From the NCBI GenBank assembly GCA_009726095.1, contig WLMZ01000028.1, positions 1 through 33,750 of the forward strand: 33,750 bases of DNA, given 5' to 3'. Position numbers and translations under genes: made by a program. Positions within the stretch are counted from its first letter, which is position 1. Every line of letters starts with the position of its first letter. A model generated the notes under the pieces. The model made no database searches. It worked only from the letters and a program-made list of their open reading frames with translations, and was not told where the DNA came from. The stretch comes from Actinomycetota bacterium. GTDB taxonomy: Bacteria > Actinomycetota > Acidimicrobiia > Acidimicrobiales > Ilumatobacteraceae. Below, piece by piece: positions 6,103-33,750 of the stretch.

Positions 6103-6555
6103 ATGGTCACAGGTACCGCAAGCGTCACGATCGATCGTTCGCCGATGGAGGTGTTCGCGGCCGTCTCCGACATCACCCGTACGGGTGAGTGGAGCCCCGA
6201 GTGCACCGCCGGCCGGTGGGTCGGCGGAGCAACCGGACCGGTGGTCGGGGCGAAGTTCGAGGGTGACAACAAGGTGGTCGTCGCAGGGATCACGATGAAG
6301 AAATGGACCACCACTTCGGAGGTCACGGCGTGTGTGCCTGGCGAACTGTTCGAGTTCGTCGTCGAGGGCTACACGACCTGGCGTTACGAGCTGGCCCCTG
6401 TCGGTACCGGCACCACCGTGACCGAGTCGTTCAGCTTCGATGCCTCGAAGGGCCTGCAGGGATTCATCTACGAGAAGGTGCTGCGCCGGTCGCGTTCGAT
6501 GACGAAGGGCATGCAGCGCACCCTCGAACGGCTCAAGGCGAGCTTGTCGTCGTAG
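6103..6555 (+). CDS. SRPBCC-fold protein (polyketide cyclase/dehydrase-like)
   Basis: A 150-residue single-domain protein of the START/SRPBCC superfamily: an N-terminal strand and helix (VTIDRSPMEVFAAVSDITRTGEWSP), a run of beta strands, and a long C-terminal helix ending in KGMQRTLERLKASL. Such proteins bind hydrophobic ligands in a deep cavity; some are cyclases or lipid carriers, and most are unassigned. AGGGGG precedes the ATG. Its last 23 bases overlap the 3' end of the convergent GT39 gene, so transcripts from the two strands would be complementary there. The location after an MFS exporter suggests a role with the exported compound, which is inference. Confidence 0.82.
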   Translation: MVTGTASVTIDRSPMEVFAAVSDITRTGEWSPECTAGRWVGGATGPVVGAKFEGDNKVVVAGITMKKWTTTSEVTACVPGELFEFVVEGYTTWRYELAPVGTGTTVTESFSFDASKGLQGFIYEKVLRRSRSMTKGMQRTLERLKASLSS

Positions 6556-8935
6556 CAGCGCCCGGTCGCTGAGCTGGTTGCTGGCCCGGTTGCTGGCCCG
6601 GTTGCTGGCCGGCGCCGCCCGCTGGCCCACCTGCGGGCAGGTACTGGGCGCACGCCTGCATCGCCTCCTGCACAGCCGGGTCGGCGAAGTTCGGCGGTCC
6701 ACCCTGCAGCGCGGAGGCATCAATGCCCTGGGCCACCATGCATTCCTGCAACGCGGCCATGTCGACGCCGCCGGGACCGTTACCGGTGGGCCGCGTGCCG
6801 GTGCCGGTGCCGGTACCTGTGCCGGTCGTTGTCGAGGCGGGCGCGTTCTTCGCCGCTTCCAGAATGGCGTCGGCCTTGCCGGCGCAGTCGTAGATCACCG
6901 CGGTGCTCGTGCCGTCACCCACCGACGACAGGTCCACGACCGTGCACGCCGATGCAACCCACGTGGTCACGCCAGAGCCGCCAGCAAACCCGCCGGGTGC
7001 GCCGCCACCAGGGCCACCGGGGCCACCGCTCGAACCGCTCACGTAGCGCAGTTGGCCCGTTCGGACCAGGCCGGCAAGGCGTTCGGCCGACATCGCGTTG
7101 TCGCTGCCGCTGAAGCCGCCCATCGACATCACTCGGTAGCCCTCGATGATCGGGGTGTCGGCCTGCATCGAACTGCCGACGGCGAGGATCCATGTCTCGG
7201 TGGTCGTGCTGGCCTGCAGATAGTCGAGCACGCTGGTGTCGATTCCGCCAGCACCGAATCCGCCGCCAGGAGCACCCGCACCGCCATCGCCGCCAGTGCC
7301 CGGGAGGCCGCCGCCCGGGAGGCCGCCGCCCGGGAGGCCGCCGCCCGGGTAGCCGCCGCCCGGGAAGCCGCCGCCCGGGAAGCCGCCGCCCGGGAAGCCG
7401 CCGCCGTTGCTCATCACCGCAGGGCGAGCGTCAGGGAAGGTTGCGGTCTGCGCATGTGTCAACCCGCTGCCGATCCACATCGCCGGGGCAATGAGCCCGG
7501 CTGCCAGGCCGGCGCCGATCGTGACGTAGCGCCACCTGGTCATCGATTCGCTGAAGGCCCACAGCACCAGCGCGATGGCCACCAGCGCAAGCGCAACCGG
7601 CGCGACGATGCGCAGCCAGGAGAAGGCGTCGACCCGGCGCAGCAGGATCAGCTCGACGACCGCAGTGCCGACCACCGCGGCAGCTGCCATGAGCCGTGCA
7701 GGTCGGCCGCCGCGCAACACCTGGGCGATGCCGATGCCCACGAGCGCTGCCATCGCCGGTGCCAGCGCAGAGACGTAGTAGTTGTGGAAGATGCCCTTCG
7801 AGTAGGCGAACAGCAGATACGTCAACACCGCCCACACCCCGAACAACGCCAGCGAACCGGTCTGGGGATCACGTCGGCGGCGCCGCACGGCCGTGAGGAT
7901 GCCGGCGATCAGCGACACGCCGACGATCACCGACAACCACATCACCTGATCGCCCATGCCCATGTTGAACAGGCGCCCGATGCCCGGCGTGCCACCGAAC
8001 TGATCGACGCCGCCCGCGCCCGCGAACCCTCCACCACCACCTGCCCCACCGCCCGGTGCGCCGCCGCCCTCGTTGCCGAAGACCCGACCGAAGCCGTTGT
8101 AGCCGAAGACCAGGTTCCAGGCGCTGCCGTCGGTGCTCCCACCGACGAACGGGCTGTTGGGGCTGAGATCCATGAGCGCAACCCACGCACCGCTGACGGC
8201 CACGAACGCTGCACCGATCAAGCCGATGTGAGCGGCGTGACGACGCCACGAGACGCTGACGCCGAACAGGACGGCCAGACCGAGGGCGGGAAGGATGACC
8301 GCGGCAGCGAGCATCTTCGTGAGGAATCCGAGCCCGACCAACGCGCCCGCTGCGGCTGACCAGCGCAACGTGTTGGTGGCGACGGCTCGCTCGGTGGCCC
8401 ATGCAGCGGCAACGAGCATCAGCACCAGGATCGCATCGGGATTGCTCGATCGGGCGACGGCAAACATCATCGGTGTCAGCGCCAGTGCGACACCCGCTGC
8501 GATGCCGGCAGTGCGGCCCCATACCCGCCGCACGGTGATCGTCAACAGCCAGACGGCGAGGGCTCCGGCGACGGCCGATGGAAGCAGCAGGCTCCACGAG
8601 CTGTACCCGAAGACCTTGGCCGACGCTGCCTGGACCCACAACGCGAACGGCGGCTTGTCGGGGGTGATGAAACCGCCCGCGTCGTAGCTGCCGTAGATGA
8701 AGTTGTGCCAGCTGCTGGTCATCGACCGTGCAGCCGCGGCGTAGTACGCGTTGCCGTACCCGTTGATCGAGAGATTCCACGCGTTCAACACCAGCGCGGC
8801 GATTGCGATAGCCGCTTCGATCAGCCGCCCGCGGCCGCTCAGCGCCGGCGGTACGGGGTCGAGCGACTCGGGGCGTCCGGTCGTCCCGGCGGAAACGTTC
8901 GGCTCGGCGGCGATGGTGAGTGTGTCTTCAGACAT
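6533..8935 (-). CDS. GT39-type integral membrane glycosyltransferase (ArnT/YkcB-like)
   Basis: An 800-residue GT-C glycosyltransferase of the PMT/ArnT class, which transfers a sugar from a polyprenyl-phosphate carrier to an acceptor outside the membrane. After a short cytosolic tail, the first membrane segment (about 35-55) is followed by the periplasmic loop with the conserved YDAGGFITPDKPPFALW. Membrane segments alternate up to about residue 490, with a Gly-rich loop near 287-315. Then come seven Pro-Gly-Gly-Gly-aromatic/Leu pentapeptides and a soluble domain (about 565-685) with MGGFSGSDNAMS, as in the C-terminal domain of YkcA/YkcB-like proteins. The C-terminus carries a Gly-Thr run and a small two-Cys module. 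The GT2-GtrA gene is divergent and probably supplies its sugar donor. The 3' end overlaps the SRPBCC gene by 23 bases. Acceptor and sugar are unknown. Confidence 0.88.
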   Translation of the reverse strand: MSEDTLTIAAEPNVSAGTTGRPESLDPVPPALSGRGRLIEAAIAIAALVLNAWNLSINGYGNAYYAAAARSMTSSWHNFIYGSYDAGGFITPDKPPFALWVQAASAKVFGYSSWSLLLPSAVAGALAVWLLTITVRRVWGRTAGIAAGVALALTPMMFAVARSSNPDAILVLMLVAAAWATERAVATNTLRWSAAAGALVGLGFLTKMLAAAVILPALGLAVLFGVSVSWRRHAAHIGLIGAAFVAVSGAWVALMDLSPNSPFVGGSTDGSAWNLVFGYNGFGRVFGNEGGGAPGGGAGGGGGFAGAGGVDQFGGTPGIGRLFNMGMGDQVMWLSVIVGVSLIAGILTAVRRRRRDPQTGSLALFGVWAVLTYLLFAYSKGIFHNYYVSALAPAMAALVGIGIAQVLRGGRPARLMAAAAVVGTAVVELILLRRVDAFSWLRIVAPVALALVAIALVLWAFSESMTRWRYVTIGAGLAAGLIAPAMWIGSGLTHAQTATFPDARPAVMSNGGGFPGGGFPGGGFPGGGYPGGGLPGGGLPGGGLPGTGGDGGAGAPGGGFGAGGIDTSVLDYLQASTTTETWILAVGSSMQADTPIIEGYRVMSMGGFSGSDNAMSAERLAGLVRTGQLRYVSGSSGGPGGPGGGAPGGFAGGSGVTTWVASACTVVDLSSVGDGTSTAVIYDCAGKADAILEAAKNAPASTTTGTGTGTGTGTRPTGNGPGGVDMAALQECMVAQGIDASALQGGPPNFADPAVQEAMQACAQYLPAGGPAGGAGQQPGQQPGQQPAQRPGAATTTSSP
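7301..7405 (-). repeat. Seven tandem 15-bp repeats coding PGGG-X pentapeptides
   Basis: Seven head-to-tail 15-base units (plus-strand consensus cgggaggccgccgcc) run without interruption inside the GT39 gene. Only bases 5 and 6 of the unit vary, giving Leu, Tyr or Phe as the fifth residue. Three Leu units, one Tyr unit and three Phe units lie in blocks along the plus strand. The unit is a multiple of three, so gain or loss of copies keeps the frame. Confidence 0.95.
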
Positions 8936-23478: not shown

Positions 23479-25335
23479 ATGTCGACAGACCAGCAGCAGA
23501 CACCCATTGATGCAGACGCCCTTCGCCGCAAGTACCGCGAGGAACGCGACAAGCGGTTGCGTGTCGATGGCAACGACCAGTATCTCGAGGTGGCCGGTGA
23601 CTTCGCCCGGTACCTGGTGGACCCCTACATCGAGCCGTTCGAACGCGAGCCGTTGAGCGACGATGTCGAGGTCGTCATCATCGGTGGCGGCTTCGGTGGC
23701 CTGCTTGCCGGAGCACGCCTTCGCCAGGCGGGCGTGGCCGACATCCGCGTCATCGAAAAAGGTGGCGACTTCGGCGGCACCTGGTACTGGAACCGTTACC
23801 CCGGCGCAGCATGCGACGTGGAGTCCTACATCTATCTGCCGCTGCTCGAGGAGATCGGGTACATCCCCGAACAGAAGTACTCGAACGCCCCCGAGATCCT
23901 GGCGCATAGCCAGGCCATCGGCCGCCACTTCGACCTCTATTCGAACGCGTGCTTCCAGACCGAGGTCACCGGGTTGCGATGGGACGATGCCGCTGGGCGG
24001 TGGATCATCTCGACCAACCGTGGTGACCAGATGCGCGCCCGCTTCGTGTGTATGGCCAATGGCCCGCTGCACCGCCCGAAACTGCCGGCGATCCCCGGCG
24101 TCGAACTGTTCCAGGGTCACACGTTCCACACCAGCCGCTGGGATTATGACTACACCGGCGGTACCTCGTTGGGTGGCCTGTCGGGTCTGGGTCACAAGCG
24201 CGTCGGCATCATCGGCACCGGGGCGACGGCGGTGCAGTGCATTCCGCATCTGGCCGAGGGCAGCGAGCACCTGTACGTGTTCCAGCGCACGCCCTCATCC
24301 ATCGACGTACGTAACAATCAGCCGACATCGCCCGAGTGGGCCGACACGCTCGAACCGGGTTGGCAGAAGCGCCGCATGGAGAACTTCAACACGCTCGTGT
24401 CCGGCGGCTTCCAGGCCGAGGATCTGGTGAACGACGGTTGGACCGACATCATCGGCAAGCTGCTGATCATGGTGCGCCGCGAGTCGGCCGATCTCAGCCC
24501 CGAGGGCCTCAGCAACACGATGGAGCTCGCCGACTTCGAGAAGATGGAGCAGATCCGCTCGCGTGTCGACACCATCGTGTCCGATCCGGCCACGGCCGAG
24601 GCGCTCAAGCCCTATTACCGCCAGTTCTGCAAGCGTCCGTGCTTTCACGACGGCTACCTGTCGGCGTTCAACCGTGACAACGTCACGCTCGTCGACACGC
24701 AGGGCCGAGGTGTCGAACGCATCACCGCGACCGGTGTGGTGGTGGATGGCGTCGAGTACGAACTCGACTGCCTCGTCTACGCCACCGGGTTCGAGGTGGG
24801 TACCGACTACACGCGTCGGTCGGGTTACGAGCTCATCGGGCGCGACGGCATCACCTTGACCGAGAAGTGGGCCGACGGTGCCGCCACGCTGCACGGCATG
24901 CACAGCCGTGGGTTCCCGAACTGCTTCATCTTCAGCAACATCCAGGCCGGATTCACCGTCAACTTCCCGCACATGCTCGACGAGCAGAGCAAGCACCTCG
25001 CCTACATCCTGCGTCATGCGATGGACAACGACATCCAGGTGATCGAGGCGTCAGACGATGCCGAGTCGGCATGGGTGCAGAGAATCCTCGATCTGTCGCA
25101 GAACAACCAGAAGTTCCTCGAGGCGTGCACGCCTGGCTACTACAACAACGAAGGCAAGCCCGAGGCGCGCAGCGCGCGCAACGGCAGCTACGGCGGTGGT
25201 GGTGTGGCCTTCATCGCGCTGCTGGAGAACTGGCGTGCCGACGGCGCGCTTCAGGGCCTCGAACTGACCCACGAACCCGACGAGCGTTCGCAGCGAGAAG
25301 AGGGCATCCGGGCCCGCCGCAGCATTGCGAGGTAG
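23479..25335 (+). CDS. Flavin-containing (Baeyer-Villiger-type) monooxygenase
   Basis: A 618-residue class B flavoprotein monooxygenase that should use FAD, NADPH and O2 to insert oxygen into a ketone or oxidise a related substrate. The FAD Rossmann motif is at 67-74 (VIIGGGFGG), followed by [18 protein letters not shown]. The Baeyer-Villiger fingerprint FxGxxxHxxxWD is intact as [12 protein letters not shown] (211-222), and the NADPH motif [10 protein letters not shown] follows at about 244-253. The N-terminal extension of about 60 residues and overall length suit the larger cyclopentadecanone/steroid-type group. The ATG at 23479 was chosen because upstream sequence in this frame is low-complexity and shared with the divergent promoter region. 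The substrate is unknown; terpenoid or cyclic ketones would fit the neighbouring acyl-CoA operon but this is inference. Confidence 0.9.
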
Positions 25336-25387
25336 CGTCCACGCCTGCGCTCGGATCCGTCGGCGCGAATGGGCGCCAGGGGCCACG

Positions 25388-28300
25388 ATGTACTTTTCCC
25401 AAACCAGCCGTTGGACCAGCGGCGGCCGGCTTGCCGTACTGCTCGCCGCGGTGCTGTCGATGTTTGCCGGAGTGTTGGCGGTCGGCGCGGCGCCGGTCGC
25501 AGCCGTCCCCCCGTTCGGCCCGGCCTTAACACACGTGCTCAACGCCGGAGGGGGCCAGAACGCAAGTGATGGCATCGAGTGGCGCCTCGACGGTGGGCAA
25601 CTGCAGGTACATCGCTACACCCCCGCATACAGCTCCGGCACCTGCGATACGACCAGCTGTGTCCTGACCCCTCACGCAGCCCAGCCGGGGGCGGCGCAGT
25701 TGTACGACCCAGTCGTCGACCCAGCCGCTGTCTCCTCACCCCAGTTGACCAATGGTTGGTTCCTCGCCATTATGGGCGACCCGAACGACCTCTACACCAC
25801 CACCCTAGTGGGCCAGCCAGCGTTCGGCGCCATACCTGATGCCACGCTGTTGCCGATCTGCGATTGGACTGCATCGCCGGCGACGTGCGTTAACCGGGCG
25901 CCGTGGAGGTCGGTCGTGACCACTGGCGGGTCCGTGACGGCAGATCAAGCGGGCAGCGCATCGCACTCGATCACCAGCGTGATGACCTATACCCCTGCCC
26001 CGGGTCAAGACTTCGTGATGACCGTGACCATGACCTACGTCGGGCTCGGCCAACGCGCCAACGTGACCGTCTCGGTCACTGCGCCTGCGGACAACACCGC
26101 AACGATGAAGGTCTACAACCTGTTCGACTCGTACCTGTTGGGCGACGATTCGGGCGCAGGTTTCTACGACGCAACAACCGATTCCAATCACCCACAGGTC
26201 GGCGTACAGAAGTACCTCCCCGACGGCACCCGGGTCATCGAGGCAATGCAGAACAACGGCCCGCTGTGGGACGGCTATGTGTCGAGCGAATTCCTGTGCG
26301 GCTTCGTCGGCGTATCCGATCTGGATGTGCCCGTCGCGTGCGGTGGATCCCTCTCGCCGGTGGCGGGGGGAGCGATGTTCCTCGGCGGCGATTTGTACAC
26401 CGGCGAAGCCGCGTTGAACCGCAACCCCACGACGGACAACGGTTTCGGCGCGATGTGGAAGTTGCCGGTCACTGGAACAGACCCGGTCAAGCCCATCGAC
26501 TACGACCTGAACTTCTCGATCGACCAGGTGTCGAGCGGCAACGTGTTCATCGGCGGCCGGTACTGGGACGGTAGCGCCTCGACCGATTCGACCGACCCCA
26601 CCTCCGGAACGGCCGAAAGCTGTAGCAACACCCCATACCACTCGATCTTCGCGGCGGCATCCACCAGCGCGGCCAACGGCGACGGAGCATCGTCTGCCCA
26701 GCCGGGCGACACCGTCTACATCTGCCCCGGCACCTACCGGGAGTCGCGTCAGATCAGCTACCCGGCCAACGTGAGCTTCGTGGGCGTCAACCTCGACGGC
26801 ACGCCAGCCACGGGCATACAACGACCCGTCATCGAGCGCGCGGCGAACCCCGACAGCGCGGGACCGTTGTTCGCGTCGGCCAAGACAGCGTTGCCGCAGG
26901 GCACCACGGCATTTCGGGGCCTCATCCTGCAGAACGGCTACTCGGCATCGGAGCCGGGAGCAATGATCAGCCTCGGGCCGCTCGATGCGGACACCATGCT
27001 GGCGGTTGTCGACTGCGACTTCCTGAACAACACAGCGTCGTCGGGTGGAGCGATCTCCACCGATGGCGCAGGGGTCGTGGTCACCGACTCGGTGTTCGCC
27101 GGCAACACCGCAACGAGGGAAGCCGATTTCGTCACATCGCGAGGTGGCGGAGCGATCCTGTCCACAAACGGCACGGTCACCGTGAACAACTCCTCGTTCA
27201 CCGCAAACTTCGCGCAGGACGATGGCGGGGCGATCAGCGCCGCAACCGTCGCGGCAAACGATTCCACCTTCGAATCCAACAGGTCGCGTGAGGGCGGAGC
27301 GCTCGCGTCCTTCTCAGCCATCGTTCGCCGATCGAGCTTCAAGGCCAACGTCGCCCGTGGGGACGGCGGTGCCATCTCGACGAACATCGGCGACCTCGCC
27401 GACTCCACGTTCACCAGTAACTCCACTGAGGTCAGCGAGAATTTCGGTGGAGCGGTCGCTGCCTACGGAAATGCGACCGGGGCGCCAACGGTGCGCCACG
27501 CCGTGACTGCAACTTCGGATCCGGTGGTGGGAACAACGCTGGCCATCGCTGGCAGCACCTTCAGCGGCAACAGTTCCACGCTGCTCGGCGGAGCGGTGTA
27601 CGTCGCCACCGGCCCAACCACGATCGTGGGTTCCACGTTCGCCAGCAACTCGGTCGATCGTGCTTCGGGTGGTGTGGGCGGTGCTGTCTATTCGACCGAC
27701 CAGATTGCGATCACGTCCAGCACGTTTGTCGCCAACACCGCCTATATAGGTGGAGCGGTCCTGAGCGCCTTCTCCCCCGCTCTGCCGTGTAGCTGTTCGA
27801 CCGAGTTGGCGTCGGTGACGGCCATCAACTCCACTTTTTCGGCCAACACCGCCGACACCGGCGGAGCCATCTCGGGCTGGGTGACCGCAGCGACGTACTC
27901 CACATTCGCGGACAACGTCGCCGATTCCTTCGGTGGGGCCATCAACGCGGATCAAGGTCTCCGGCTGGCCAACTCGTTGTTCTCGACAAACGCCGTGAGC
28001 CCGGCCTGTGGATCGCCGGTCACCGGTGCAGGCCCCAACAGCAGCTGTGCTCAAACCCTCAACCCGCCTGTGAACACCGGTTCGTGCAGCACCACTTCCC
28101 CGCAACTCGTCTACGACCTGGGTGGCAACATCACCGACGATGCCAGCTGCGCGTATCAGCCCTCCAGCGGTTCGCCCTCCAAGCCCACCGCGTTGAGCAC
28201 GGCGGTCGACATGCATCTCGGCGTGCTGGCCAACAACCCGGCGTCGGCGGGAACCCAGACCATCTCGATCGACACGACCAGCACGGCATACAGCGCGGCC

Positions 28301-31300
28301 GACTGCACGGCGGCCCCCGACATTCTCACGGACCAGAACGGCGTGTCACGCCCCCGTGGCGGCGGTTGTGAGGCAGGTGCGTTCGAGGTCTTCGAAGCGC
28401 TGGCCGGCCCCGGCGCGGTCTACATCGTTGGCCGCGGCTTCGATAGCACCAGCGGTGTGGAACAGCCCACGCCTGACCTCGGGCACCTCATCACCAGTTG
28501 TGACAACACCCCATATCACCTGATCGGCGATGCAACGCACGCGGCCGTCGATGGCGACACCGTGCACGTCTGTCCCGGTACCTACACCGAGCCGACGATC
28601 CAGGTGTCCGCCGACGATGTCACCATCGAGGGCGACATGGTGCTAGACCCGACTTCCGGGCCGCAGTTGCAGGCCCACATCGACGCGTTGCAGGACAATA
28701 TCGATGCCGGCCCGGCGGGCCATGGGCTGATCGCCGTTGCTCCTTCCGTGACGACGTTCACGCTCGACACCATTGAGCTGACACATGGGCGTGCCGTTGA
28801 CGGCGGCGCCGTCTATGCCCCGGGTTCGCTGGTCGTGGTCAAGGACTCGGCCTTCTCCGGGAATCAGGCGTCCGTTCATGGTGGAGCTGTGTACGCCAGA
28901 GACGTTGAGACCTCCTCGCGAACCGGGTTCAGCGAGAGCGGGATTCCCGTGGCTTTCTACGCGAATGTTGCATTGGCCGGCTCTGAGTTCGACGCATACG
29001 ACGCGATGGCAGGCGGCGGTGCGATCTTCGCCACCCGCAGCGTGCACGCAACCGACACCGTCTTCGCTTACAACGGAACCACCGGGTCTGGAGGCGCCAT
29101 CGACGCACCAGACGTCGAAGCCACCCGCACGGCCTTTGGTCTCAACAGCACCTACGAGGGTTTTGGCGGTGCCATCGTCAGCCCTGCAGCGTTTGGCAGG
29201 GTTGTATTGGTGGACTCGGCGATGGCGCTCAACGGCCTCGGCTATCTCACCACACCTCTTCCGATGCAGCTTCTTTCGCCGCAGCAGACCTCGGTCGGGG
29301 GTGGCATCGCTGCCATGGGCGCCGGCAGCACTGTGAGCCTGCAGCGCACGTCCGTGTTCGTCAACTTCGCAGGAACCGGTGGAGGGATCTACTCGAACGG
29401 CGGCTCGGTGCAGGTGACCAACACCAGCTTCGTATCGAACCATGGTGACAGCGCCGGTGGAGCGATCCATTTGGGCTCCGGCACACTCGACATCCTGCAC
29501 TCGTCGTTCTACAGCAACAGCTCTCTCGATGGCTCGTCGGTCTGGATGCCTGGTCTCCGTGCCCCGAGTGCAGCGGGTGCAACGACATCGACCGTCACGA
29601 ACTCGATCTTTGCCGATGTGGACGGTGATGGCGTTGCCCTGAGTGGTACCTGCAATGCAGGGGAACTCGCCGACGGCGGAGGCAACTTCACCACGGATGG
29701 CAGTTGCCCCGGAGAGCCGGCGTCGGTGGAAGCGCTCGGACTTGTGGTGCCAGATCCGCTCCCATTCGGGAGCCCGAACCTGGTGCCCTCCGGAATCTTT
29801 CCCGGTCTCCCTTTCGATGCCGTCGTTGCCCCCAGCGCTGGCAGTGTTGCCTTCGACGCCATTGCGCCTGATCTTGCGGGTGCTTGCGCAGTGAGCGTTG
29901 ACGAACGTGGCGTGGCCCGCCCGCAGGGCGCCAAGTGCGATGCCGGGGCCTACGAACACCAACCGGCGAGCGGACCCAACAGCGTGTACATCGAAAGTGA
30001 CGGTGGCTCGTGTGTAGCCCCCACCTACACCTCGATCACCGACGCAGTGGCTGGTGCCGTTACCGACGACATCATCCATGTGTGTACCGGCACCTATCGC
30101 GAGCCCACCATCGTGGTGCCTGCGTCGAAGAACAACCTCACCATCCTCGGTGAGGACTACACGCCGACCAACAAGCCCACCACGTCGCCCAAGGTGCCCT
30201 TGGACCCCAGCGTGATCATCGACGGTGAGCAGATTGAAGCCGATGCGACGAGTCGTCATCAGATCTTCGATGCCACCGGCCTGACCATCTCGTTCAAGAA
30301 CGTCACGTTGCGCAATGGGTCCAGCGACAGTAATGGCGGTGGCGTGACGGCCGCAGAGGTCATCGGCGAGGACTGTGTGTTCCGGCACAACGTTGCACCC
30401 GGTGGTGGTGCAGTGTTCGTCACGGCCAGCCTGATCGAATCGATCCCTGCTGCGGTCACGATGACCAACTGCGACTTCACCGACAATGGGTTCAGCCCTA
30501 CCGCAGACACCTTCGATGGCGGTGCGATCTACGCCGACGGCGGTCTGGTCACGTTGACGGATTCGAGGTTCACCGGGAACTCGGCGATCAATCACACCTC
30601 GGTGGATCGCCCGGTTGGCGAGAATGGCGCAAGCCCGGCCAACGAGGGTGCGGGCGGAGCAGTGCTCGCAGCCCACATCGAATCAGACGGCAGCACGTTC
30701 GACTCGAACATTGCAGCGTTCCATGGCGGAGCCCTGCTGGCTGAGACTGTGAACGTGCGCACGAGCACGTTCACAGCGAACACGGCTCTCGTCGATGGTT
30801 CTGGTTACGGCGGTGCCATCTGGGGTAGCTACATCTCGGTAACCGAGAGCACCTTCAGTGCAAACCAGGCCGACGGCGGCGGCGCCATCGGCGCTGTCGA
30901 CGGCGCAGCGCCGATCCTGGCTCCTGCTCCGGCAGATCCCGTGTTGGTCGCAGACGTACGCATTGACTCGAGCACCTTCGAGGGCAACACCGCCACCGCA
31001 TACGGCGGAGCGGTGTACAACACCTCGGGCACCGTCGAGTCGTACAACTCCACCTTCTCGGCGAATACCGCAGGCTTGAACGGTGGTGGCGTGATGTCCG
31101 CCGGACCGCTCACGTTGCTGAACAACACCTTCGATGCCAACACAGCGGTCAACGATGGTGGCGTGTACGCCACGTCGGCGGCAGTGACCGTTGGCAACAA
31201 CATCTTTTCGTTCGAGGGTGGTTCACGCGACCGGCCCACGCCCGGCAATGGTTGTTCGGATTGGACGGTCAACCCCACCGATCTCGGTGGCAACTTCACC

Positions 31301-33750
31301 AGCGATTGGTGGTGCCCCGGTACCGAGATCTCCGTGAACCGCATGGGTTTGAAGCCCTTGGCTGACAACGGCGGACCGACCGAGACCATCGGGCTGCAAC
31401 GCTGGAGCTCGGCAGTGGACCATGGCGACGACGCAACATGCCAGGGCGACGACGTCAACGGCACCGACCAGCGTGGTGTGCTGCGACCGGTCGGCGCGCA
31501 GTGCGATTCGGGCGCTGTGGAGTTCGCTGCCCTGACGTCGGACCCGACCACAACGGCGACGTTGGCGAGCGAGACCGAGATCGTGGTGGGTGACACCATC
31601 AGCGACACCGCCACCGTCACGCCTTCGCTGCAGACCCGCCCCGTGCATGGCGGGCGCCTGAATCCTGCGCCCGCACCAACCGGCATGGTGGAGTGGTTCT
31701 ACTGCTTCGATGCCGCCACCGCACCGAGCTCGTGCGACCCAAGCACCGGCACCGCAATCGGTGATCTCGTCGAGCTCGATGTCAACGGCGAAGCCGTTCT
31801 GACCGACTGGGAGCCGACCGATGGAGTTGGCTTCTACATGTTCCACGCTGTGTATCGCGGTGACGACAACTGGGCCGCGTCGTTCGACGACGGAACCGAC
31901 GAGTCGTTCGAGGTCGTCAAGCGGGTCACGGTCACCGCCGACGATGCGTCGGCCACCTACGGAACCGCGGCGGGCCCGTTCACCTACACGTCCGATGGCT
32001 TCGACCCGGGTGACGATTTCACCACGCCGCCGACGTGCAGCGTGTTTGACACCGACGACGCCGACTACCTCACCCCGTTGACCGCCGATGCGACACTGGC
32101 GCCAGGCGACTACGTGATTCATTGCGCTGACGGGGTTGCCCCGGCCGGATACAAGATCAAGTACGTCGACGCGACCTTGACTGTCTCGAAGAAGAAGCTG
32201 AGGATCGAGGTCGAGCACTCGGACATCACCTATGGCGACTCGAGCACGAACCTGAACATCGACATCGACATCGAGGGTTGGGCGCGTGCCGATAAGCCGG
32301 CACATGATGACGACGGCGAGGATCACGGCTACATGGACGGCTTCGTGCCGCCGGACTGCGATCTCCACTACACGCCGACCACGCCGGTCGGCTCGGTCGA
32401 CGTCACCTGCACCGGTGGGTCATCAGACTTCTACGAGATCCCCTCCGGGGTGATCGGTTCCTATGTCATCAAGCCGGCCAAGCTCACGGTGACTGCTGAC
32501 CCCAAGACCGCTGTGTACGGCGGTCCTGCTCCGACCTACACCTACACGGTGACCGGATTCAGAAACGGTGAGACCGAATCCGGTGGAACCATGGCCAGTG
32601 GGTATGTGGCGCCGACGTGTTCATCGAGCTACTCCGGTGGCCCGACTGCGCCGGCACTGCTCGACCCGATCAGCGCGTCACCCAGCGGTCCGAAGATCAC
32701 GTGCTCGGGTGGTTCGGCCACGAACTACACCTTCGAGTACAAGTACGCGCTGTTGACCTTGGCCAAGGCAGTACTCGTGGTGACACCGGATGCGAAGTCG
32801 GTTGTCTACGGTGGTGCTGCGCCTACCTACACCTTCAGCGTGACCGGGTTCGTGCCAGGTCAGACGGCGGGTACGGCGGCGGGTTATTCGGCGCCGAAGT
32901 GCACGTCGTCGTACACGACTTCGACGGCGGTGGGTTCGCCGGTGAACATCACGTGCTCGGGTGGCTCGGCGACGAACTACTCGTTCACCACCAGTGCCAC
33001 TGCGGCGCTGACGGTGACCCAGGCCGCGTTGGTCGTCACGCCTGATGCGAAGAGCGTGGCGTACGGCGCAGTGGTTGGTGCGTACACGTTCAAGCTGTCG
33101 GGTCTGAAGAACAACGAGCCAGTTCCAGGGGCGGGGTACGTGGCCCCGGTCTGTTCCTCGTCGTATTCGACAACGTCGCCGGCGGGAACCCCGTTGACGA
33201 TTTCGTGCTCGGGTGGTTCGTCCACGAACTACACGTTCGGCACATCGCCGACGGCGGTGTTGACCGTGACCAAGGCCGTGTTGACGGTGACGCCTGATGC
33301 GAAGAGCGTTTCCTACGGTGGTTCTGTGCCGTCGTACACCTCGGTCGTGTCGGGTTTCCGTCCCGGTGACTCGGCTGCCACTGCAGCGGGATACGTCGCA
33401 CCGGTGTGCGTGTCGCCGTACACGTCGTTCACCTCAGTCGGGTATGTGACGATCACGTGCTCGGGTGGTTCGGCCACCAATTACACCTTCAGTTTCCAGA
33501 CGGCGAAGGTCACGGTGAACAAGGCTGTTCTCGTGGTGACGCCGGATGCGAAGTCGGTTGTCTACGGCGGTGCTGCACCCACGTACACGTTCGGTGTGGC
33601 CGGGTTCGTGCCCGGTCAGACGGCGGGTACGGCGGGTGGATATGTGGCACCGAAGTGCACGTCGTCGTACACGACGTCGACGGCTGCAGGTGCCCTGGTC
33701 AACATCACGTGCTCGGGTGGTTCGGCGACGAACTATTCGTTCACCACAAC
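25388..33750 (+). CDS. Giant secreted beta-helix/MBG-repeat surface protein (3' partial)
   Basis: One open frame of 2,787 complete codons runs to the window end without a stop. Residues 1-39 form a signal peptide (Arg-rich start, long hydrophobic core, APVAA at the cut site). Residues about 45-380 form a domain I do not recognise. Three right-handed beta-helix modules follow (about 385-1001, 1008-1524 and 1529-2046), each opening with a VYI...CPGTYRE-type segment and closing with a D-x-RG-x-x-RP-x-G-x-x-CD/E-x-GA-x-E motif. Inside them the repeats alternate FxxN and GGA(I/V), as in chlamydial Pmp and other surface adhesins. An Ig-like segment (about 2047-2177) leads to at least seven MBG-like repeats. 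AGGGG lies six bases before the ATG. The protein is likely a cell-surface adhesin or stalk; anchor and end lie outside the window. Confidence 0.9.
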   Translation, partial: MYFSQTSRWTSGGRLAVLLAAVLSMFAGVLAVGAAPVAAVPPFGPALTHVLNAGGGQNASDGIEWRLDGGQLQVHRYTPAYSSGTCDTTSCVLTPHAAQPGAAQLYDPVVDPAAVSSPQLTNGWFLAIMGDPNDLYTTTLVGQPAFGAIPDATLLPICDWTASPATCVNRAPWRSVVTTGGSVTADQAGSASHSITSVMTYTPAPGQDFVMTVTMTYVGLGQRANVTVSVTAPADNTATMKVYNLFDSYLLGDDSGAGFYDATTDSNHPQVGVQKYLPDGTRVIEAMQNNGPLWDGYVSSEFLCGFVGVSDLDVPVACGGSLSPVAGGAMFLGGDLYTGEAALNRNPTTDNGFGAMWKLPVTGTDPVKPIDYDLNFSIDQVSSGNVFIGGRYWDGSASTDSTDPTSGTAESCSNTPYHSIFAAASTSAANGDGASSAQPGDTVYICPGTYRESRQISYPANVSFVGVNLDGTPATGIQRPVIERAANPDSAGPLFASAKTALPQGTTAFRGLILQNGYSASEPGAMISLGPLDADTMLAVVDCDFLNNTASSGGAISTDGAGVVVTDSVFAGNTATREADFVTSRGGGAILSTNGTVTVNNSSFTANFAQDDGGAISAATVAANDSTFESNRSREGGALASFSAIVRRSSFKANVARGDGGAISTNIGDLADSTFTSNSTEVSENFGGAVAAYGNATGAPTVRHAVTATSDPVVGTTLAIAGSTFSGNSSTLLGGAVYVATGPTTIVGSTFASNSVDRASGGVGGAVYSTDQIAITSSTFVANTAYIGGAVLSAFSPALPCSCSTELASVTAINSTFSANTADTGGAISGWVTAATYSTFADNVADSFGGAINADQGLRLANSLFSTNAVSPACGSPVTGAGPNSSCAQTLNPPVNTGSCSTTSPQLVYDLGGNITDDASCAYQPSSGSPSKPTALSTAVDMHLGVLANNPASAGTQTISIDTTSTAYSAADCTAAPDILTDQNGVSRPRGGGCEAGAFEVFEALAGPGAVYIVGRGFDSTSGVEQPTPDLGHLITSCDNTPYHLIGDATHAAVDGDTVHVCPGTYTEPTIQVSADDVTIEGDMVLDPTSGPQLQAHIDALQDNIDAGPAGHGLIAVAPSVTTFTLDTIELTHGRAVDGGAVYAPGSLVVVKDSAFSGNQASVHGGAVYARDVETSSRTGFSESGIPVAFYANVALAGSEFDAYDAMAGGGAIFATRSVHATDTVFAYNGTTGSGGAIDAPDVEATRTAFGLNSTYEGFGGAIVSPAAFGRVVLVDSAMALNGLGYLTTPLPMQLLSPQQTSVGGGIAAMGAGSTVSLQRTSVFVNFAGTGGGIYSNGGSVQVTNTSFVSNHGDSAGGAIHLGSGTLDILHSSFYSNSSLDGSSVWMPGLRAPSAAGATTSTVTNSIFADVDGDGVALSGTCNAGELADGGGNFTTDGSCPGEPASVEALGLVVPDPLPFGSPNLVPSGIFPGLPFDAVVAPSAGSVAFDAIAPDLAGACAVSVDERGVARPQGAKCDAGAYEHQPASGPNSVYIESDGGSCVAPTYTSITDAVAGAVTDDIIHVCTGTYREPTIVVPASKNNLTILGEDYTPTNKPTTSPKVPLDPSVIIDGEQIEADATSRHQIFDATGLTISFKNVTLRNGSSDSNGGGVTAAEVIGEDCVFRHNVAPGGGAVFVTASLIESIPAAVTMTNCDFTDNGFSPTADTFDGGAIYADGGLVTLTDSRFTGNSAINHTSVDRPVGENGASPANEGAGGAVLAAHIESDGSTFDSNIAAFHGGALLAETVNVRTSTFTANTALVDGSGYGGAIWGSYISVTESTFSANQADGGGAIGAVDGAAPILAPAPADPVLVADVRIDSSTFEGNTATAYGGAVYNTSGTVESYNSTFSANTAGLNGGGVMSAGPLTLLNNTFDANTAVNDGGVYATSAAVTVGNNIFSFEGGSRDRPTPGNGCSDWTVNPTDLGGNFTSDWWCPGTEISVNRMGLKPLADNGGPTETIGLQRWSSAVDHGDDATCQGDDVNGTDQRGVLRPVGAQCDSGAVEFAALTSDPTTTATLASETEIVVGDTISDTATVTPSLQTRPVHGGRLNPAPAPTGMVEWFYCFDAATAPSSCDPSTGTAIGDLVELDVNGEAVLTDWEPTDGVGFYMFHAVYRGDDNWAASFDDGTDESFEVVKRVTVTADDASATYGTAAGPFTYTSDGFDPGDDFTTPPTCSVFDTDDADYLTPLTADATLAPGDYVIHCADGVAPAGYKIKYVDATLTVSKKKLRIEVEHSDITYGDSSTNLNIDIDIEGWARADKPAHDDDGEDHGYMDGFVPPDCDLHYTPTTPVGSVDVTCTGGSSDFYEIPSGVIGSYVIKPAKLTVTADPKTAVYGGPAPTYTYTVTGFRNGETESGGTMASGYVAPTCSSSYSGGPTAPALLDPISASPSGPKITCSGGSATNYTFEYKYALLTLAKAVLVVTPDAKSVVYGGAAPTYTFSVTGFVPGQTAGTAAGYSAPKCTSSYTTSTAVGSPVNITCSGGSATNYSFTTSATAALTVTQAALVVTPDAKSVAYGAVVGAYTFKLSGLKNNEPVPGAGYVAPVCSSSYSTTSPAGTPLTISCSGGSSTNYTFGTSPTAVLTVTKAVLTVTPDAKSVSYGGSVPSYTSVVSGFRPGDSAATAAGYVAPVCVSPYTSFTSVGYVTITCSGGSATNYTFSFQTAKVTVNKAVLVVTPDAKSVVYGGAAPTYTFGVAGFVPGQTAGTAGGYVAPKCTSSYTTSTAAGALVNITCSGGSATNYSFTT
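26540..28390 (+). repeat. Beta-helix module 1 of the giant protein
   Basis: About 617 residues with twelve FxxN turns counted by eye (for example STFSGNSSTLLGGAV and STFVANTAYIGGAV). It opens with NVFIGGRYWDG and CPGTYRESRQ, and ends with GVSRPRGGGCEAGAFE. Each turn pairs a (S/T)xFxxN with a GGA(I/V/L) step, the signature of PMP-type beta-helix coils. Confidence 0.8.
28409..29959 (+). repeat. Beta-helix module 2 of the giant protein
   Basis: About 517 residues opening with AVYIVGRGF and CPGTYTEPT, and closing with GVARPQGAKCDAGAYE. It has fewer and less regular FxxN coils than module 1 (for example SAFSGNQASVHGGAV, then degenerate coils such as SEFDAYDAMAGGGAI). Confidence 0.78.
29972..31525 (+). 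repeat. Beta-helix module 3 of the giant protein
   Basis: About 518 residues opening with SVYIESDGG and CTGTYREPT, and closing with GVLRPVGAQCDSGAVEF. About ten coils are visible (for example STFDSNIAAFHGGAL and STFEGNTATAYGGAV). Confidence 0.78.
31919..33750 (+). repeat. At least seven MBG-like repeats of the giant protein
   Basis: Units begin near 31919, 32189, 32477, 32762, 33017, 33269 and 33518, about 250-290 bases each, and continue past the window. The first two are divergent. The later ones share a (L/V)VTPDAKSVxYGG start, a GYxAPxC segment and ITCSGGSATNYTF. The pattern resembles the MBG family of extracellular repeats, with two Cys added in most units. Confidence 0.82.

Follow-up and report, generated by a model that had tools for sequence, protein, structure and literature searches.

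The closest described systems are the Periscope Proteins (SasG, Rib, Sgo_0707 and CdrA, the last with MBG_2 repeats), large bacterial surface proteins with tandem arrays of folded domains. They are defined in PMC8201768, where MBG_2 and YDG were also made as Pfam families, and reviewed in PMC9704523; their repeats are highly alike in DNA. According to the excerpts of PMC8201768, the number of MBG_2 repeats in CdrA varies between strains of Pseudomonas aeruginosa, and length variation is strongest where repeat identity is highest. Another group are the domain repeats studied by Bjorklund, Ekman and Elofsson (2006): excerpts of PMC1553488 state that they mostly grow by multi-domain duplication and that likeness between neighbours is lower in some families. 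Here we describe an array of MBG_2 units towards the end of a giant gene in contig C113 of a genome from the Ilumatobacteraceae. The whole contig, 33,750 bases, is the window; the genome is a draft of 3.5 Mb in 191 contigs, 87.8% complete.

The array shares its general plan with the Periscope Proteins, but its repeats are less alike. Its neighbouring units have 39–66% base identity and its closest pair, 86–87% identical, is non-adjacent: the very high DNA identity of Periscope repeats is not found. Pfam and NCBIfam recognise no cell-wall anchor in the C-terminal 258 amino acids of the protein. As in the multi-domain-duplication repeats, non-neighbours can exceed neighbours in likeness, but here there is a single alike pair, without the off-diagonal partners of a block. 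On balance we lean to the view that one MBG_2 unit was copied once to a non-adjacent slot by within-gene recombination and has since diverged to about the level found between species. The pattern is real but ordinary for the MBG family, in which variation of repeat number has already been published (PMC8201768, excerpts). Our literature searches, which were not aimed at this lineage, turned up no paper on its MBG arrays.

The array and its closest pair

A preliminary description of the window, made from its sequence, had reported four MBG units, the first and the last being the most alike. These units are present, but the array has seven. Their order is X, Y, Z, A, B, C, A2, from 31919 to about 33778 on the join with a second contig, C177:

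31919–32191, plus strand: MBG unit X (PF18676, 50.9 bits)
32192–32476, plus strand: divergent MBG-like unit Y (found by a profile built in this analysis only; absent among the PF18676 matches)
32477–32767, plus strand: MBG unit Z (PF18676, 45.6 bits)
32768–33022, plus strand: MBG unit A, first of the similar pair (PF18676, 48.4 bits; 70 of 78 residues as in A2)
33023–33274, plus strand: MBG unit B (PF18676, 36.2 bits)
33275–33523, plus strand: MBG unit C (PF18676, 45.2 bits)
33524–33750, plus strand, with about 28 more bases on C177: MBG unit A2, cut by the contig end (PF18676, 43.6 bits)
33716–33750, plus strand: exact overlap of 35 bases with the end of C177 (14725–14759, minus strand); the frame continues to a stop

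Six of the seven units pass the curated cut-off of PF18676 (25 bits), with 36.2–50.9 bits in the genome search; Y is the exception. Units A and A2 are identical at 70 of 78 residues and at 204 of 234 bases (87%), the highest base identity of any pair. The other 20 of the 21 unit pairs are at or below 65% residue identity, the second best being C–A2 (49/76). The two units in between are clearly more divergent from A (A–B 47/84 residues, A–C 53/83), as had been said. The hand count of seven differences in 74 residues was right too: the sequences from 32762 and from 33518 onwards differ at 8 of 77 residues, and at 7 of 76 once the first residue is set aside. Equal similarity of adjacent units was looked for and did not appear; from Z to A2 neighbours have 63–66% base identity. 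The reported long stretches of identical bases do exist, but they were somewhat overstated: the longest run in the compared stretch has 27 bases and lies in the tails of Z and C, while inside the A/A2 unit it has 26.

Over 255 bases A and A2 show 35 differences, of which third codon positions account for 23. The 35 are evenly spread (Kolmogorov–Smirnov p 0.87), as expected of a single copied piece. At four-fold degenerate sites A and A2 agree in 37 of 53 cases, against 13/30 for A–B and 19/38 for A–C. Since the silent sites are also alike, the likeness of A and A2 reflects shared descent and goes beyond protein constraint. In a tree of 42 units they form a supported pair (99/91).

The shared segment is one unit, about 32762–33019, with both ends near unit borders. 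At an offset of 756 bases, each block of 60 bases in 32780–33019 has 52–53 identical positions. The two blocks after 33019 have 12–13; the two blocks before 32780 have 40, which by eye comes largely from a motif that recurs in other units. The other pairs three slots apart are not raised: Z–C has an identity of 0.61 and Y–B of 0.41, compared with 0.63 for Z–A and 0.45 for Y–A. Z–C ranks at the 60th percentile among the array's remaining pairs, and the best-diagonal permutation for the array gives p 0.72. Because the identity stops at 33019 and neither Z–C nor Y–B is raised, no three-unit block is visible. Thus of the two origins proposed in the preliminary description, duplication of three units or gene conversion, what stands is shared ancestry through within-gene recombination, well supported by the agreement of silent sites; duplication of a three-unit block is not supported, and no B–C follows A2 on the join with C177 either.

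For the age of the copy we compared four-fold sites, where A and A2 agree in 40 of 58 (0.69). A housekeeping-type gene of the window, carboxylase-like as named by eye, was compared with its nearest relative in a second species of the genus, G001, and the two agree in 200 of 291 (0.687); in G002, G008 and G007 the values are 165/277, 160/277 and 134/238. By this single gene the copy looks old, of roughly the age at which two species of the genus separated. Since the silent sites of A and A2 are at this between-species level, the copy is no sign of strain-level change. Strain differences in copy number, which had been called likely, do not follow from this pair.

Contig C177 shows what lies beyond the window. 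Its reverse complement starts exactly with the last 35 bases of the window, in frame; even when three mismatches are allowed, the genome has this sequence at no other site than these two contig ends. C177 completes A2 much as A is completed, then the frame runs for about 240 residues to a stop. The join is supported by the likeness of this C-terminal part to the end of an MBG/YDG protein of G001 (42% over query residues 1–255); with the array included, the agreement is 33% over 860 aligned positions. No further MBG unit follows A2 on the join. A repeating A-B-C order beyond the window had been predicted for a block duplication: C177 is the only other site of the overlap, and there the array ends at A2.

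MBG arrays in other contigs and genomes

Our survey covered 38 chosen sources, mostly rich in units. Runs with fewer than four contiguous MBG units were set aside, as were partial units covering less than 45 columns of the profile; 13 of the sources then yielded 14 arrays. The 14 arrays are not all independent: the C113 array is included, and C24 and G030_C51 carry orthologous arrays. In 4 of the 14 the closest pair consists of neighbours, against 4.1 expected by permutation if order is irrelevant. A non-adjacent closest pair (10 of 14) is therefore the common case and no more than chance placement. Nor do the 14 arrays show a deficit of adjacent similarity, which would point to selection for unlike neighbours (mean of adjacent minus all pairs +0.005, permutation p 0.27).

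Some arrays have block-like lags: C187, of the same genome as the window, at lag 3 (pairs 2–5, 1–4 and 3–6), L049 at lag 2 (3–5, 2–4) and L050 at lags 6 (7–13, 6–12) and 4 (3–7, 2–6). These periods are not significant in the best-diagonal permutation (p 0.13 to 0.63). Only G180 reaches 0.05 (0.049, lag 9, two pairs), in one of 14 tests. Since the block-like lags are mostly not significant, a non-adjacent closest pair alone cannot tell block duplication from the copying of a single unit. By itself it signals neither recent block duplication nor strain-level change of copy number. The extent of the shared segment and its silent-site age are needed first, because unit order carries almost no similarity signal in the arrays examined. 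L050 is a 13,026-base stretch of a Limnohabitans metagenome-assembled genome, open in one frame throughout (4342 amino acids), with 30 MBG units. Two of its units with a spacing of six slots have the same bases throughout, and the preceding pair is 95% alike; this looks like a recent block duplication.

Two comparisons between genomes are informative. The array of C24, also in the genome of the window, and that of G030, from another genus, have five full units which correspond one-to-one and in order; all are reciprocal best matches with 55–67% identity. Four of the five pairs are strongly supported in the tree, the fifth with 97/79. G180 and G185 are two species of one genus and have a common backbone: units 3, 7, 8, 9 and 12 of G180 are reciprocal partners of units 3, 6, 7, 8 and 11 of G185. 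The other seven units of G180 (1, 2, 4, 5, 6, 10 and 11) are nearest to unit 4 of G185, only unit 2 reciprocally, and are 73–93% alike among themselves at base level. Four-fold sites of the positional partners agree in only 8/38 to 14/41 cases; this places the two species far from each other, and the multiplication may be old. The family thus has cases in which one type of unit was copied into a number of slots, some of them distant, which makes a single-unit copy in C113 plausible while leaving conversion unproven. A comparison of G209 with G218 was uninformative, since the array of G218 is cut off by the contig end and the matrix shows no clear colinearity.

MBG units lie close to contig ends more often than expected. 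In 10 of 36 chosen MBG-bearing contigs there is one within 300 bases of an end, against 2.0 expected; both the limit and the set of contigs were fixed after seeing the data. The ten belong to the 24 contigs of the genome itself and its family, with none among the 12 contigs added from the class; five contigs of the window's genome are included and give three of the ten. Unit counts from such draft assemblies are unreliable. Another MBG gene gives an example of ends within an array. Comparing 400 bases of each end, positions 142–400 of G000:C62 (L030) and the right end of G000:C187 (L029) are 90.7% alike over 259 bases; the array contains the end of one contig and the start of the other. The two stretches are paralogues, or they come from two strains in one assembly.

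Origin of the copy

In the origin that we favour, within-gene recombination would have copied one unit into a non-adjacent slot, with both ends near unit borders. One unit may have converted the other, or an unequal exchange may have had the same effect; afterwards A and A2 would have accumulated differences, now about as many as are seen between species of the genus. We infer that conversion made the pair, not block duplication with later loss. The latter, in which an A-B-C block was duplicated and B' and C' were then deleted, leaving A2 beside the C-terminal domain, is possible but somewhat unlikely. It would explain the spacing of 756 bases, which is three unit lengths, and finds parallels in the periods of two, three, four and six units in C187, L049 and L050, but the lack of significance of these periods weakens the parallel. 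It also requires two events, while the join with C177 has no trace of B' or C' after A2 and the upstream pairs Z–C and Y–B are not raised.

It is quite unlikely, in our opinion, that the array is actively changing its length between strains in the manner of Periscope Proteins, the contig break hiding more copies. The break does fall inside A2, MBG units are in excess near contig ends, CdrA varies between strains as mentioned above (PMC8201768, excerpts), and G180 has multiplied one unit type relative to G185. However, length variation has been reported to peak where repeats are most identical (same excerpts), and here A–A2 reaches only 86–87%, the neighbours from Z to A2 63–66%. The silent sites make the copy old, the C24 array keeps five full units in order across two genera, and the 35-base overlap joins in frame and is unique to the two contig ends. 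An artefact of assembly, either one unit placed twice as A and A2 or a chimera, is very improbable even for a draft in 191 contigs whose array is interrupted by a contig end: the copies differ at 35 of 255 bases, no identical run between them and their near flanks exceeds 27 bases, and both the left flanks (ends of Z and C) and the right flanks (B and the C-terminal domain) differ. For A and A2, a collapse of repeats in the assembly, mentioned in the preliminary description, is improbable; with the contig break falling inside A2, however, the count of seven units is provisional.

Several points weigh against a single copying by recombination. The conversion-run test gives p 0.02 for A–A2 and 0.005 for B–C among ten pairs, unconvincing after correction. 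Z and C share their identical tail of 27 bases just before the copied unit: the tract could begin slightly upstream, and the divergent bases in between would then need explaining. In the sampled genomes we found no orthologous array which displays the state before copying. The age is that of a rough clock, one gene with its own codon bias. Finally, multi-domain duplication is commoner than single-domain duplication in other families (PMC1553488, excerpts), which also speaks for the block reading.

A broader idea, which we regard as rather doubtful, is that MBG arrays of this lineage evolve mainly by unit-for-unit conversion between non-adjacent slots. This would renew the sequences of the units, with neighbours kept unlike and the number of units often fixed, and would be a slow counterpart to the length changes of Periscope Proteins. 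Stalk proteins could then, provided that such conversion is general, exchange sequence without making neighbours alike; alike neighbours are thought to risk misfolding (PMC8201768, excerpts).

The giant gene and its relatives

The gene which contains the array takes up the last quarter of the window:

25325–33750, plus strand: 5' part of the giant open reading frame, running off the contig end (2808 amino acids)
28853–31525, plus strand: stretch between the best-scoring matches to POMP, Chlam_PMP and choice-of-anchor Q families (Pfam PF02415, E 9.8e-23; NCBIfam NF041518, E 2.2e-34, and TIGR01376, E 4.5e-17); these families have other matches too

With C177 added the frame has 3055 amino acids. 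The ATG at 25388 is the more likely start, followed by a hydrophobic, signal-like stretch (both by eye). The N-terminal part matches Chlam_PMP, POMP and choice-of-anchor Q families, which are of beta-helix type; towards the end of the window MBG_2 follows (PF18676, E 3.3e-54 for the whole protein). At the C-terminus there is a match to Big_3_5 below threshold (24.9 against 35.5 bits) and a still weaker one to GEVED. The product is probably a very large secreted surface protein, in which the MBG_2 array would work as a spacer stalk. A structure model of unit A, made from 22 units, is all-beta with seven strands (mean pLDDT, the predicted local distance difference test score, 91.9). The best sequence match of A-B-C to a solved structure has only E 0.089, and Foldseek with the model gave no match at E 0.001 or better. 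Because no solved structure matches at this level, unit A is read as a beta-sandwich from its secondary structure and from the general remark that the majority of such families of repeats is Ig-like (PMC8201768, excerpts).

A full orthologue of the giant gene was not found in the sampled genomes. The N-terminal 638 amino acids have matches in 7 of 221 genomes of the family, including its own; those in the other six cover at most 115 query residues (best E 2.8e-7). The C-terminal part has matches in 2 of 61 genomes, again counting its own. Among the eight other genomes of the genus, with one genome per species, PF18676 matches occur in G001 only, in the protein mentioned above (G001:C57, L037), which has another architecture. 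It shares the homologous C-terminal domain and also has MBG units, but its N-terminal half is unlike, it contains YDG domains as well, and its three MBG units are mutually non-adjacent; for these reasons it is no orthologous array. Its YDG and MBG domains, placed after an unrelated N-terminal half and before the common C-terminal domain, represent domain shuffling around a shared end. The last MBG unit of G001 was tried as a reference for the direction of copying between A and A2, and gave no decision, being equally distant from both (51/80 and 50/80). YDG was not found in the window's genome at the search threshold, at which the positive control gave no match either.

At the matching place in G001 (16.7 kb) and in G002, the neighbouring carboxylase-, dioxygenase- and monooxygenase-like genes are present (by eye). 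The giant gene has no match there at E 1e-5, the contig of G002 ending too soon to tell.

The window has another repeat at 7298–7405, a tandem repeat with a period of 15 and 96% matches. It encodes a glycine-rich run inside a minus-strand frame, 6533–8935, which by eye resembles a membrane glycosyltransferase.

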